A stretch of DNA of 64,000 nucleotides, taken from positions 47,872 through 111,871 of the forward strand of contig NZ_JAODIX010000030.1 of the NCBI RefSeq assembly GCF_026586675.1. The letters run 5' to 3'. The stretch is from Halorubrum yunnanense. GTDB taxonomy: Archaea; Halobacteriota; Halobacteria; Halobacteriales; Haloferacaceae. Position 1 is the first letter of the stretch. Each line of letters opens with the position of its first letter. The notes beneath the pieces were generated by a model. That model was given only the letters and a program-made list of their open reading frames with translations. It searched no databases and had not been told where the DNA came from. Shown here piece after piece: positions 13,186 to 17,461 of this stretch. A program made the position numbers and the translations under genes.

Positions 13186-13638
13186 GTGAGCGACGACAGC
13201 GACGGACCGAACCACCGAGTAGCGTTCGTCTGCGTCCAGAACGCGGGACAGAGTCAGATGGCGGCGTTCGCGGAGCGCGAGCGCGACCGTCGAGACGCGG
13301 GCGATCGGATCGAGATTCTCACCGGCGGGACGCGGCCCGCCGAGCGCGTCCACGACGTGGTCGTCACGGCGATGGGGGAGAGCGGTATCGACCTCAGCGA
13401 CCGGACGCCGGGGGAGGTGACGCCCGAGGAGCTACGGGCGGTCGATCTGGTCGTCACCGTCGGCTGTTCTGCGTCGGACGTCTGCCCGGCGACGTGGAAC
13501 GGCGAGAGCCGAGACTGGGGGATCGACGACCCGCACGGGCGGCCGATCGAGGAGGTCCGCGAGATCCGCGACGAGACCGAGGGGCGCGTCGCCGCGCTGT
13601 TCGACGAGCTCCTGTCGGAGACGCCGTCCGCTGAGTGA
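13186..13638 (+). CDS. Low-molecular-weight phosphatase / arsenate reductase-like protein with altered P-loop
   Basis: A 150-residue protein of the LMW-PTP fold, like thioredoxin-linked ArsC. The P-loop begins at Cys16 (FVCVQNAGQSQMA). The family signature is C-x5-R, but residue 22 is Gln instead of Arg. Two more cysteines (Cys94, Cys100, in VTVGCSASDVCP) resemble the redox relay cysteines of thioredoxin-type ArsC, and WGIDDPHGRP supplies the general-acid Asp. It may have lost or changed activity through loss of the anion-binding Arg. It converges on the arsenic operon, ending 15 bases from the CC-protein stop. GTG start. Confidence 0.85.
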   Translation: MSDDSDGPNHRVAFVCVQNAGQSQMAAFAERERDRRDAGDRIEILTGGTRPAERVHDVVVTAMGESGIDLSDRTPGEVTPEELRAVDLVVTVGCSASDVCPATWNGESRDWGIDDPHGRPIEEVREIRDETEGRVAALFDELLSETPSAE

Positions 13639-13653: not shown

Positions 13654-13875
13654 CTAACAGCAGCCGTCGTCGGCACCGCAGACGCTGCCGTAGTCGATCC
13701 CGGTCTCCTCGCCGATCGCCTCGTTACACTGCATCACCATCGTCGTGAACGCGGACTCCGACGACGACTCCTTCGCCGCCGCGAGCTCCTCGCCGAGCGC
13801 CGCGGCGGCCGCGACGACCTCGTCGTCGGTGACTCCGCTCTCGTCGGCGTCCCCGTCAGAGGCGCTCAACAGCAC
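13654..13875 (-). CDS. Small halo-CC-type protein at the end of the arsenic operon
   Basis: A 73-residue acidic protein ending GADDGCC, with earlier single cysteines in VMQCNEA and GSVCGAD. I recall a haloarchaeal family of about this size named for a terminal Cys-Cys before the stop (halo-CC-star). The vicinal pair could bind arsenite or another thiophilic metal, which is inference from the operon. The GTG start overlaps the end of the YlbF-like gene by ten bases; a TTG two codons later would give a four-base overlap. It is the last gene of the arsD-arsA-ylbF string. Confidence 0.75.
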   Translation of the reverse strand: MLLSASDGDADESGVTDDEVVAAAAALGEELAAAKESSSESAFTTMVMQCNEAIGEETGIDYGSVCGADDGCC

Positions 13876-14282
13876 CCACCCCCGGTGGACCGCGCGAACG
13901 CCTCGCCGATCGCGTCGCTGATGACGTCGTCCGTCCGCTGGAGGAGCGCTATCAGGTCGGCCTGTGCGGCCCGCTGCCGCTGGATCGTCTCGTCGTTCGA
14001 CATCTCGGTCTGGAGCTGTTTCAGTTCGGCCATCACCGACCCGTCGAAGCCGCCGCGCTGCATCTGCTGCTGTTTCCGCTGGTACTCGCGGAGCAGGGCC
14101 ATCGCGTCGGCGTCATCCCGTAACGCCTCGTCGGCCGCGACGAACCGCCGATACGTCTCCGACTCGCCGAGCGCGTCGAGGAACTCGCGGAGCGCCGCCT
14201 CGACGTTTGCCTCCACTGCTTCCTCATCTGGAACGCCCACGTTGCTCTCGGCCGCGTCGTCCGCGTCCTGCGCGTCGCTCAC
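13866..14282 (-). CDS. YlbF/YmcA-family protein with C-terminal Cys-Cys
   Basis: A 138-residue helical protein matching the Com_YlbF family: FLDALGESETYRRFVAADE, LLREYQRKQQQMQ and LKQLQTEMSND are typical. In Bacillus these proteins form complexes acting with RNase Y; their job in archaea is not established. This one ends STGGGCC, the same vicinal-cysteine tail as its downstream neighbour, which is not a general feature of the family and suggests metalloid binding in this operon. The GTG start overlaps the arsA stop by four bases. Confidence 0.85.
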   Translation of the reverse strand: MSDAQDADDAAESNVGVPDEEAVEANVEAALREFLDALGESETYRRFVAADEALRDDADAMALLREYQRKQQQMQRGGFDGSVMAELKQLQTEMSNDETIQRQRAAQADLIALLQRTDDVISDAIGEAFARSTGGGCC

Positions 14283-16249
14283 GAGGGCGTCACCTCCGGG
14301 GCGCCCGCCGCGGCGATATCCCCGAGACCGGTGATCTCCTCGCCGAACGCGCTCAGCTCGTCGAGTCCGATCGGCTCGTCCCGACGGAGCGGCGCCAGCA
14401 TCAGCGGCGCGTCGAACCGGTCGCGGATCGCCTCGAGATACCGCGCCTGCTGGGCACGCCGGTTCGCGAAGAAGGCGTTGTCGCCGTACTCCTCGGGGAG
14501 GAGGTAGTTCGCGACGACCAGCGAGGTCTCGATGCCGACCTGGTCCTCGAGATCGGCGGCGGCCCGATACGCCTCCATCATGGGGGTGTACTCGGGGGAC
14601 ATCACGAACGCGAAGGTGCTTCGCTCGGGGTCTTTCATCGTCTCGATGACCGCGTCGTACTGGTCCCCCTTCGCGGGCGCGGCGCCCTTCGTCAGCGAGC
14701 CGAGGTCCATGAACCCCTTCCAGTCGGATGGGAGTTCGAGCAGTCGGAGCGTGTGGCCCGTGGGGGCCGTGTCGAAGACGACGACGTCGTAGCCGTCCTC
14801 GTCGAAGTAGCTCACGAACTTCTCGAGGGCGGCCATCTCCTCGGCGCACGGCGACTCCAGCTCCTCCTCGACGTTCGCGATCGCGGCGTCGACGTCGATC
14901 TGCGCGTCCTCCCGCTCCTCGTACATCTCCGTGACGTGGTCGATGACCCCCTCGCGGTACTCGGCCAGCGCCTTCTCCTGGTCGATCCGCGCCGCGTCGA
15001 GGCTCTCCTGCCCGACCGAGGTGGGCTCGTGGCCCACGGGCTCGCCGAAGATGTCCTCGAGATGCGCGGCCGGGTCGGTCGTGACCACGAGCGTCTCGTG
15101 GCCCGCCTCGGCGAGCTTCGTCGCCGCCGTCGAGGCGACCGTGCTCTTGCCGACGCCGCCCTTCCCGGTGAAGAAGAGGTACCGCGTCTCCTCGCCGGGC
15201 GTCAGTTGGTCGACGACCGCGTCGGCGCCCGCCATCGACCCGAAATCGGTCGCGCCGTCGGGACCGGCGCGGCCCGCGCCGTCACCGTCGGTCGCCGTCT
15301 CGACGTCGACGGTCGCCTCCGCGCCGTCGTAGAGGACGCTCCCCACGTCCTCAAGCAGGTCGAGACCGGCGATCTCGCCGGGCTGGAGCGGGTACGTCGC
15401 CGTCGCGTCGGCGTCGAACTCCTCGCGGGCGCGCTCGATGACGGCCTGCTCGTCGGCGCGTTTCCCCTCGAAGAAGGGGTCCTCACACACCGGCTCTGGG
15501 AGGTAGCCGTTGAGGATCAGGAGCTGGGACTCGATCCCGAGGTCGGCGAGGTCGCCCGCGCTGCGTTCGATCTCGTCGATCGAGGAGTCCTCGGGCTTGC
15601 CGACGAACGCGAACGAGGTGCGCTCGTCGTCCTGGAGGGTGTCGATGGCGCGCTCGTAGTCCCGCTTCCGGTCCTCCATCGAGGCGGCCGGCCCGATACA
15701 GGTCGAGCCGCCCTTCTCGAGCTCGGCGTTCCAGTCGGAGGGGAGCTCCATCAGCCGGATGGTGTGGCCCGTCGGCGCGGTGTCGAAGACGACGACGTCG
15801 TACTCGGGGCTGTCCATGAAGTCGACGAAGTTGTCGAAGGCGGCGATCTCCTCGACGCAGGGGCTGTTGAGCTGTTCTTCGACCGTCTGGATCTCCTCGT
15901 CGCCGAGCAGTTCGCGCATCGGCTCGATCGTCTCCTGCCGGTACTCCTCGGCGGCCGTGTCGGGGTCGATCTCGATCGCGGAGAGGTTCTCGATCCCGTC
16001 GATCGCGGTGACCTCGTGGCCGATCGACTGCCCGAAGATGTCCGAGAGGTTCGGCGCGGGGTCGGTGGTGACGAGGAGCGTCTCGTACTCCTCGTCGGCG
16101 AGCCACGTCGCGGTCGCACAGCTCACGGTGCTCTTGCCGACGCCGCCCTTCCCGCTGAAGAAGACGAACTCGGTGTCGTCGCCGCTCGGCTCGACGATCT
16201 CGCGCGCGCTCGTTCCCGTCGACTCCGCCGACTGCTCCGTCTGTGTCAT
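14279..16249 (-). CDS. arsA: ArsA, double-domain arsenite-stimulated ATPase
   Basis: A 656-residue tandem ATPase of the ArsA/GET3 group, as in pump-linked ArsA. P-loops GKGGVGKS lie at residues 33-40 and 362-369, and each half has the signal-transduction motif DTAPTGHT. Cysteines at 131 (NSPCVEE), 184 (GSTCIG) and 468 (ESPCAEE) fit the metalloid-binding trio of ArsA. A linker of about 45 residues joins the halves. ArsD (three bases upstream) would deliver As(III). ArsA normally energises a membrane channel (ArsB or Acr3), but none is encoded in the window. Confidence 0.94.
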   Translation of the reverse strand: MTQTEQSAESTGTSAREIVEPSGDDTEFVFFSGKGGVGKSTVSCATATWLADEEYETLLVTTDPAPNLSDIFGQSIGHEVTAIDGIENLSAIEIDPDTAAEEYRQETIEPMRELLGDEEIQTVEEQLNSPCVEEIAAFDNFVDFMDSPEYDVVVFDTAPTGHTIRLMELPSDWNAELEKGGSTCIGPAASMEDRKRDYERAIDTLQDDERTSFAFVGKPEDSSIDEIERSAGDLADLGIESQLLILNGYLPEPVCEDPFFEGKRADEQAVIERAREEFDADATATYPLQPGEIAGLDLLEDVGSVLYDGAEATVDVETATDGDGAGRAGPDGATDFGSMAGADAVVDQLTPGEETRYLFFTGKGGVGKSTVASTAATKLAEAGHETLVVTTDPAAHLEDIFGEPVGHEPTSVGQESLDAARIDQEKALAEYREGVIDHVTEMYEEREDAQIDVDAAIANVEEELESPCAEEMAALEKFVSYFDEDGYDVVVFDTAPTGHTLRLLELPSDWKGFMDLGSLTKGAAPAKGDQYDAVIETMKDPERSTFAFVMSPEYTPMMEAYRAAADLEDQVGIETSLVVANYLLPEEYGDNAFFANRRAQQARYLEAIRDRFDAPLMLAPLRRDEPIGLDELSAFGEEITGLGDIAAAGAPEVTPS

Positions 16250-16252
16250 CCG

Positions 16253-16582
16253 TCAGGCCTCCTGGGGCGTCGCGCCCTGGCCGACGGCGGCGGTCAGTTC
16301 GTCGTACGAGAGGTACTCCCCCTCGGCGACGATCTCCTCGTCGACGACCGTGATCGGGAGGACCGACGGCCCGTTCTCCTGCACGCGGTCGTAGATCCGC
16401 TGCGTCTCGAGGAACTGGTCGATGTTGTGCTGCATGTTCGCCCGGTTGACCTCGAGGTCGTCGAACGCGTCCTCGAGCTGGTCGAGCGCCGCGCTGACCG
16501 CGACGAGCTCGTCGTCGGGGTCGGGGCCGCAGACGCCGGTGGAGCAACACATCGCTTCTTCGTACAGGGTGAGTTCGGTCAT
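16253..16582 (-). CDS. arsD: ArsD, arsenic metallochaperone
   Basis: A 109-residue ArsD. The opening TLYEEAMCCSTGVCGP gives Cys12, Cys13 and Cys18, the same positions as the As(III)-binding cysteines of the classic ArsD. The rest has the family's short thioredoxin-like fold (NMQHNIDQFLETQRIY, ILPITVVDEEIVAEG-like region). It donates As(III) to ArsA. First gene of the operon. ATG 16582 matches the family start; the same frame extends to 16681 but overlaps the promoter. Confidence 0.92.
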   Translation of the reverse strand: MTELTLYEEAMCCSTGVCGPDPDDELVAVSAALDQLEDAFDDLEVNRANMQHNIDQFLETQRIYDRVQENGPSVLPITVVDEEIVAEGEYLSYDELTAAVGQGATPQEA

Positions 16583-16692: not shown

Positions 16693-16975
16693 CCCTTCGG
16701 TCGGGGAGTTCCGAGCCAGTCGGGCGGTCGAGGCCCCGAGAGGATCAAAAGCCCGAGACGGTCCAGAGCCGCGGTTACCCGATAAAGCCGTCCGTGGCCC
16801 ACGATCCCGGTTCGTCGGTACACGTCGCGGTTCGGCACTGCGAGGCCGGGGCGCTCACGAGGACGAACGCGCTCTCAGCGTCGCCGTTCCGTATCTGCCG
16901 CGTCGCCGTCGCGCTGGTCGTCGACCGGCGGGGGACCGCCGGAACGCGCTCATCCCTCGTGTGTGCACATAGCTG

Positions 16976-17065: not shown

Positions 17066-17461
17066 ATGTCGTCCACCGATCGCCTGCGGCGGTACGTCGT
17101 CGACGAGTGCGGCTCCTGTACCGATGAGGACCTGTCCGAGCGTGTTGCGGAACTGGAGGAGCTGAACGAGGCAGCCGGCGGGTCGGATCTGGACAGCGAC
17201 GTCGAGCTGTTGTCGGCGCTCGGGAACGAGACGCGGTACAAGATCGTCCGGATGTTACACGCGACCGACGAGGACGAGCTGTGCGTCTGCGAGCTCTCGC
17301 CGCTGCTGGACGTCAGCGACAGCGCGATCAGCCACGCCCTCTCGAAGCTCACCGACGCCGGCCTCGTCACGCGCCGGAAAGAGGGAAAGTGGCGGATGTA
17401 CCGCGCCACGCCGCGCGCGGACGCCGTCCTCGTCGCCCTCGACGGGTCGCGGTCGCTGTAG
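17066..17461 (+). CDS. arsR: ArsR-family metalloid-responsive repressor
   Basis: A 131-residue winged-helix protein. After an N-terminal segment with Cys15 and Cys18 (ECGSC), the HTH runs from about residue 47 (VELLSALGNETRYKIVRML) to the recognition helix (VSDSAISHALSKLTDAGLV) and wing (RRKEGKWRMYRAT). ELCVCELS gives the CVC pair (Cys73, Cys75) of the classic As(III)-sensing ArsR. It is divergent from arsDA and probably represses them through the inverted repeat at 16666, releasing on arsenite. Confidence 0.92.
   Translation: MSSTDRLRRYVVDECGSCTDEDLSERVAELEELNEAAGGSDLDSDVELLSALGNETRYKIVRMLHATDEDELCVCELSPLLDVSDSAISHALSKLTDAGLVTRRKEGKWRMYRATPRADAVLVALDGSRSL

Follow-up and report, generated by a model that had tools for sequence, protein, structure and literature searches.

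Why does a haloarchaeal arsenic operon encode, beside ArsD and ArsA, two short proteins that end in Cys-Cys? The operon lies in a 64,000-nt stretch of a Halorubrum yunnanense contig (the window, meaning the whole of that stretch), for which a first-pass annotation had noted vicinal cysteines in three products and had proposed that the two tailed proteins form an As(III) transfer or storage relay with ArsD and ArsA. All three pairs (Cys12-Cys13 of ArsD, the GGGCC end of a YlbF-like protein and the DGCC end of a 73-residue protein) were confirmed in the sequence. Our preferred reading, to which we give a probability of roughly 0.5, is that the tailed proteins, HcsL and HcsS, assist the ArsD-ArsA system in arsenite/antimonite resistance and would form a paired thiol module for As(III)/Sb(III) beside ArsA.

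Operon organization and family assignment

The operon consists of four closely spaced minus-strand genes, arsD, arsA, hcsL and hcsS, that run from position 16582 to 13654. The product of arsD (16253..16582) is an As(III) metallochaperone of 109 aa (MTELTLYEEAMCCSTGVCG...) with the motif MCCSTGVCG, which contains Cys12, Cys13 and Cys18 (NF033727, 112.9 bits, cut-off 90; PF06953). It is followed by arsA (14279..16249), encoding a two-domain ATPase of the ArsA_halo type (656 aa; NF041417, 1149 bits, cut-off 800), whose stop overlaps the start of hcsL by 4 nt. HcsL (13866..14282; GTG start; 138 aa) is a helical protein of the YlbF/YmcA family with the C-terminus GGGCC (NF041416, 163.5 bits, cut-off 140; PF06133). 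The end of hcsL overlaps the start of hcsS by 10 nt and, as read from the DNA, its terminal Cys codons TGC TGT (13869..13874) lie within the overlap with the hcsS start. HcsS (13654..13875; GTG start; 73 aa), a putative half-length YlbF relative, ends in DGCC and has cysteines at C50, C66, C72 and C73 (NF041415, 93.4 bits, cut-off 55), the last two encoded at 13657..13662 on the same strand. In both genes the Cys-Cys codons are followed directly by the stop codon, and HcsL and HcsS are the sole CC-ending ORFs of at least 40 aa within the window.

A divergent arsR (17066..17461, plus strand; NF033788, 83.9 bits) carries the As(III)-sensing motif ELCVCEL. Between arsR and arsD, an apparent cupin gene remnant (16775-16912, minus strand; TATRQIRNGD-ESAFVLVSAP...) was seen, with no Pfam match; at 16 other loci a cupin-like gene lies close to the ars genes, with a Cupin_2 match in one of these. 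On the other side, a convergent LMWP/ArsC-like gene (13186..13638, plus strand; PF01451) has Gln in place of the catalytic Arg of CX5R (CVQNAGQSQ, versus CVQNAGRSQ in relatives) and has apparently lost one residue shortly after the motif (MAAF versus MAAAF); from these changes, its product may be inactive. The genome has three copies of the operon, on contigs 41, 63 and 91, and the two other complete arsD-arsA-hcsL-hcsS operons are our loci L034 and L035. Near the contig 63 copy, ArsP-like and ACR3 genes were observed at a distance of at most 10 kb.

NCBIfam has already named HcsL (NF041416) and HcsS (NF041415) as "halo-CC-star" proteins with the tails as the family-defining feature, and the names hcsL and hcsS are used on RefSeq plasmid records, including pNRC100 of Halobacterium salinarum NRC-1. 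The window operon is a member of this catalogued family, and its tails are known to NCBIfam. The earlier remark that a terminal Cys-Cys here is unusual and lacks any description has therefore to be narrowed: both proteins are named and annotated, whereas our literature search, in which subscription journals were thinly covered, returned no functional study of HcsL or HcsS. To the existing catalogue the present analysis adds the probable half-length YlbF nature of HcsS, operons outside the haloarchaea that are joined by ACR3, and the finding that no permease accompanies the haloarchaeal operon constantly.

Co-occurrence and conservation of the cysteine tails

The survey sample comprised 391 haloarchaeal genomes, many of them closely related. 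HcsL was counted as present in 68 genomes (65 of these above the cut-off), which gave 41 distinct HcsL sequences after redundancy filtering. ArsA_halo was found in 69 of the 391 genomes, 67 of which also had HcsL. The single genome with HcsL but without a full ArsA_halo (G316) has a truncated ArsA, and the two with ArsA_halo but without HcsL have either a degraded ArsA with HcsL remnants (G282) or a distant, solitary ArsA (G128). The ArsA_halo gene of G128 (L129:6734-8644), which has neither HcsL nor HcsS, was seen by eye to lie beside a molybdo-oxidoreductase-like gene with iron-sulfur and membrane subunits, a neighborhood that, judged by its gene content, possibly belongs to arsenic respiration.

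The order arsD-arsA-hcsL-hcsS was constant across loci, with a divergent arsR upstream in most. A survey of haloarchaeal arsDA loci for the tails, as the first-pass annotation had suggested, bore out their conservation: the HcsL of all 72 complete loci ends in CC, as does HcsS in 65 of 74, the remainder usually keeping one terminal Cys, and HcsS has two further conserved cysteines besides the tail pair. Among the other genes called as ORFs in the fetched loci (~1,090), one, unrelated, ends in CC. A chance origin of the tails is ruled out by this conservation, set against a frequency of about 1/1000 elsewhere. These counts support HcsL and HcsS as constant partners of ArsD and ArsA. In four loci (L107, L111, L116 and L119), an arsenite methyltransferase (ArsM) gene was observed closely 3' of hcsS on the same strand.

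The ArsD and ArsA proteins of these operons keep the expected cysteines. Cys12-Cys13 of ArsD together with Cys18 form the canonical ArsD site, with nothing unusual about it; across 68 of 68 loci the CC is kept, and ArsD has no Cys outside the motif. Aligned to the E. coli structure 1f48, the metalloid-site cysteines C131, C184 and C468 of ArsA correspond to E. coli C113, C172 and C422, and C44 and C255 are conserved as well (each Cys in 68-69 of 69 sequences). Because both proteins retain the As(III)-site cysteines of E. coli, As(III) is likely to pass from ArsD to ArsA in the ordinary way.

HcsL and HcsS in the YlbF family

Profile searches of the PDB matched HcsL to RicF, YmcA and RicA, and a fold search returned the same proteins. 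The AlphaFold2 model of HcsL has a mean pLDDT of 82; pLDDT is low at the C-termini of both HcsL and HcsS, and both Cys arms are predicted to be poorly ordered. The fold search with HcsS gave no match. In hhalign comparisons, HcsS aligned with the C-terminal halves of two proteins, HcsL (55 columns; P = 1.1e-6) and the core, or housekeeping, haloarchaeal YlbF protein (31 columns; P = 1.2e-6). With the Cys tails removed on both sides, scores were ~30, versus a mean of 10 and maxima of 14-16 for column-permuted profiles (60 trials). HcsS is probably a half-length YlbF protein that resembles the C-terminal half of the family, the alignment being short, and HcsL and HcsS look like paralogues in the manner of RicF and RicA of Bacillus.

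RicF and RicA of Bacillus form a pair, and RicF C134 and C146, RicA C141 and RicT C167 together ligate one [4Fe-4S] cluster; the RicF and RicA ligands all lie close to the C-termini (PMC6751060). By analogy, HcsL and HcsS may form a pair with a common site. The Bacillus case also raises the first alternative to a thiol module for metalloids, namely that HcsL and HcsS, paired like RicA and RicF, use their C-terminal cysteines to bind an Fe-S cluster or a different metal and serve the operon as a sensor or regulator, not as an As(III) carrier. Besides the fold matches of HcsL and the position of the Bacillus ligands, this alternative is favored by the core YlbF protein. Most haloarchaea have this further YlbF protein (~64 bits), and in the 18 loci examined (L036-L053) it has no ars genes alongside; in 18 of 18, two or three residues separate a GGCC from the C-terminus, the pair being its only conserved Cys. 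In a different family of this phylum, the YlbF proteins terminate in EVYRR or similar, without CC, and in the tree the core and other YlbF groups are placed on long branches. Frequent neighbors of core YlbF, noted by eye, were genes for a Dph2-like protein and an MBL-fold hydrolase.

The CC motif of YlbF proteins is not arsenic-specific. The occurrence of CC on YlbF proteins outside metalloid operons, which the first-pass annotation had named as evidence against its relay, is thus partly borne out; because a housekeeping YlbF without ars context also has GGCC, the As(III) relay is plausible but less specific than proposed. Against the Fe-S alternative, RicT (PSP1, PF04468) was found in 0 of the 29 genomes searched, by which we rejected a RicT-type complex, and ligation of a single Fe-S cluster by vicinal cysteines was without precedent to the knowledge of the authors of PMC6751060; for these two reasons the ligand may well differ from Fe-S. 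HcsL moreover follows ArsA nearly one to one. We regard a RicA-RicF-like metal sensor as possible but unlikely.

Permeases and operons outside the haloarchaea

Neither ArsB nor ACR3 is encoded beside the window operon, and the one ACR3 gene of the genome lies elsewhere, near another operon copy (L034). Across the operon-bearing genomes, ArsB (PF02040) was found in 0 of 67 and ArsP in 51 of 67 (versus 33 of 62 genomes without the operon), and ACR3 was found in 19 of the 68 HcsL genomes. The latter is fewer than among genomes without HcsL (189/323; Fisher p = 4e-6), a comparison that ignores relatedness and was therefore given no weight. In 14 genomes, including G018, all three permeases were below thresholds (lists intersected by hand). 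ArsB, ACR3 and ArsP were each rejected as the constant pump, none being universal among operon genomes, and no known arsenite permease consistently accompanies the haloarchaeal operon.

A phylum scan recovered arsD-arsA-hcsL-hcsS on three contigs from outside the haloarchaea, with ACR3 next to the operon in two. In these two genomes from outside the class (G455 and G576), the gene directly downstream of hcsS on the same strand matches haloarchaeal ACR3 and Pfam SBF, the family that contains ACR3; a Methanoregulaceae MAG contig (L161) has the order arsR-arsD-arsA-hcsL-hcsS. The HcsL proteins from outside the haloarchaea end in GGCC, and the HcsS tails differ but are Cys-rich (CDCGGKC, CGCGGTC). 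At 100-103 bits against the NF041416 cut-off of 140, HcsL of G455 and G576 would be left unnamed by the NCBI model.

The NRC-1 cluster that contains this operon confers arsenite resistance; deletion of arsADRC caused arsenite sensitivity, loss of the annotated arsB was without effect, and the existence of a novel pump was suggested (PMC1447603, PMC3600143). These reviews do not say that the arsADRC deletion extended to hcsL or hcsS, so no phenotype is attached to either gene individually. HcsL and HcsS are constant ArsA partners that are absent from the accounts of NRC-1 arsenite resistance in the reviews consulted. We consider it unlikely, though conceivable, that they are obligate partners which let this ArsA type work without ArsB or ACR3, either through a pump family not yet recognized or by a mechanism in which ATP drives the loading of As(III) onto the thiols of an HcsL/HcsS pair, to be stored there or passed on. 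With two short genes and a genetically tractable host, the pump question is directly testable, and the answer could show that the YlbF fold has also been adapted to metalloid handling.

Since no known permease is constant in the haloarchaea, ArsA might also depend on an adaptor that links it to some other pump. On that second alternative, HcsL and HcsS would be structural adaptors between soluble ArsA and a membrane pump, with tails that aid docking and metal binding as a secondary matter. The position of hcsL and hcsS between arsA and ACR3 in the two genomes from outside the haloarchaea is consistent with such a role, but the sequences carry no sign of membrane contact, and the cysteines are the most conserved feature, which argues for thiol chemistry. 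An adaptor role appears unlikely.

The weakest alternative, that the HcsL tail is kept only through the overlap of its codons with the hcsS start region (GGxGGTGGGTGCTGTTGA), draws on an overlap present in 72 of 72 loci, with a Shine-Dalgarno-like GGAGGTG just upstream in many, but is highly improbable and was rejected as a sufficient cause, since the HcsS tail is free of such overlap, core YlbF retains its CC through three different combinations of codons where no overlapping gene was observed, the hcsL Cys codons (TGCTGT in 69/72) are swapped to TGTTGC in 3/72 with CC retained, and the hcsS start codon varies (GTG, ATG, CTG, TTG) while CC stays.

A proposed paired thiol module beside ArsA

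For the preferred reading, an accessory thiol module of the ArsD-ArsA system, we counted the constant operon, the co-occurrence of ArsA_halo and HcsL, the tails, the overlapping genes, the profile similarity of HcsS to HcsL, the placement of hcsL-hcsS between arsA and ACR3 in two genomes from outside the haloarchaea, the retained As(III)-site cysteines of ArsD and ArsA, the CC end of E. coli ArsD and the arsenite resistance conferred by the NRC-1 cluster; counted against it were the GGCC of core YlbF, the loss of one terminal Cys in some HcsS, the link of the E. coli ArsD pairs to repression, the scope of the arsADRC deletion as reviewed, and the short HcsS alignment together with the empty HcsS fold search. 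Under this reading, full-length HcsL and half-length HcsS, as YlbF-type helical proteins, would probably pair like RicF with RicA. Pairing would join the mobile C-terminal Cys-Cys arms and the two further HcsS cysteines into a soft-metal thiol site, which could take As(III) or Sb(III) and either exchange it with ArsD, ArsA or a membrane pump, or act as a buffer. Genes, family, operon, tail conservation, co-occurrence and the resemblance of HcsS to YlbF are observed directly; from these we infer pairing, metalloid binding and transfer.

Comparison with known systems

Relative to the NCBIfam families HcsL, HcsS and ArsA_halo, the window copies are alike in operon and tails, exceed all three models well and have no distinguishing feature; the models supply a name and no function. 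An ars-operon precedent for a terminal CC is ArsD of the E. coli R773 type, which ends in TSCCGGKTSCC. In that system ArsD itself bears the tail, whereas haloarchaeal ArsD has no tail Cys, and the C-terminal Cys pairs of E. coli ArsD have been linked to its repressor role and not to chaperoning (PMC4562236). Core haloarchaeal YlbF has the family, the near-terminal GGCC and the absence of any further conserved Cys in common with HcsL, but its pair precedes the end by 2-3 residues, its neighbors are not ars genes, and it forms a separate clade on a long branch. Bacillus RicF (YlbF) and RicA (YmcA) are alike in fold, family and near-C-terminal Cys, and are likewise two paralogues that possibly act together; HcsL and HcsS differ from them in that their cysteines are vicinal and terminal, that HcsS is of half length, that no RicT was found in the genomes searched, and that their operon is linked to arsenic, whereas RicF and RicA are linked to RNase Y.
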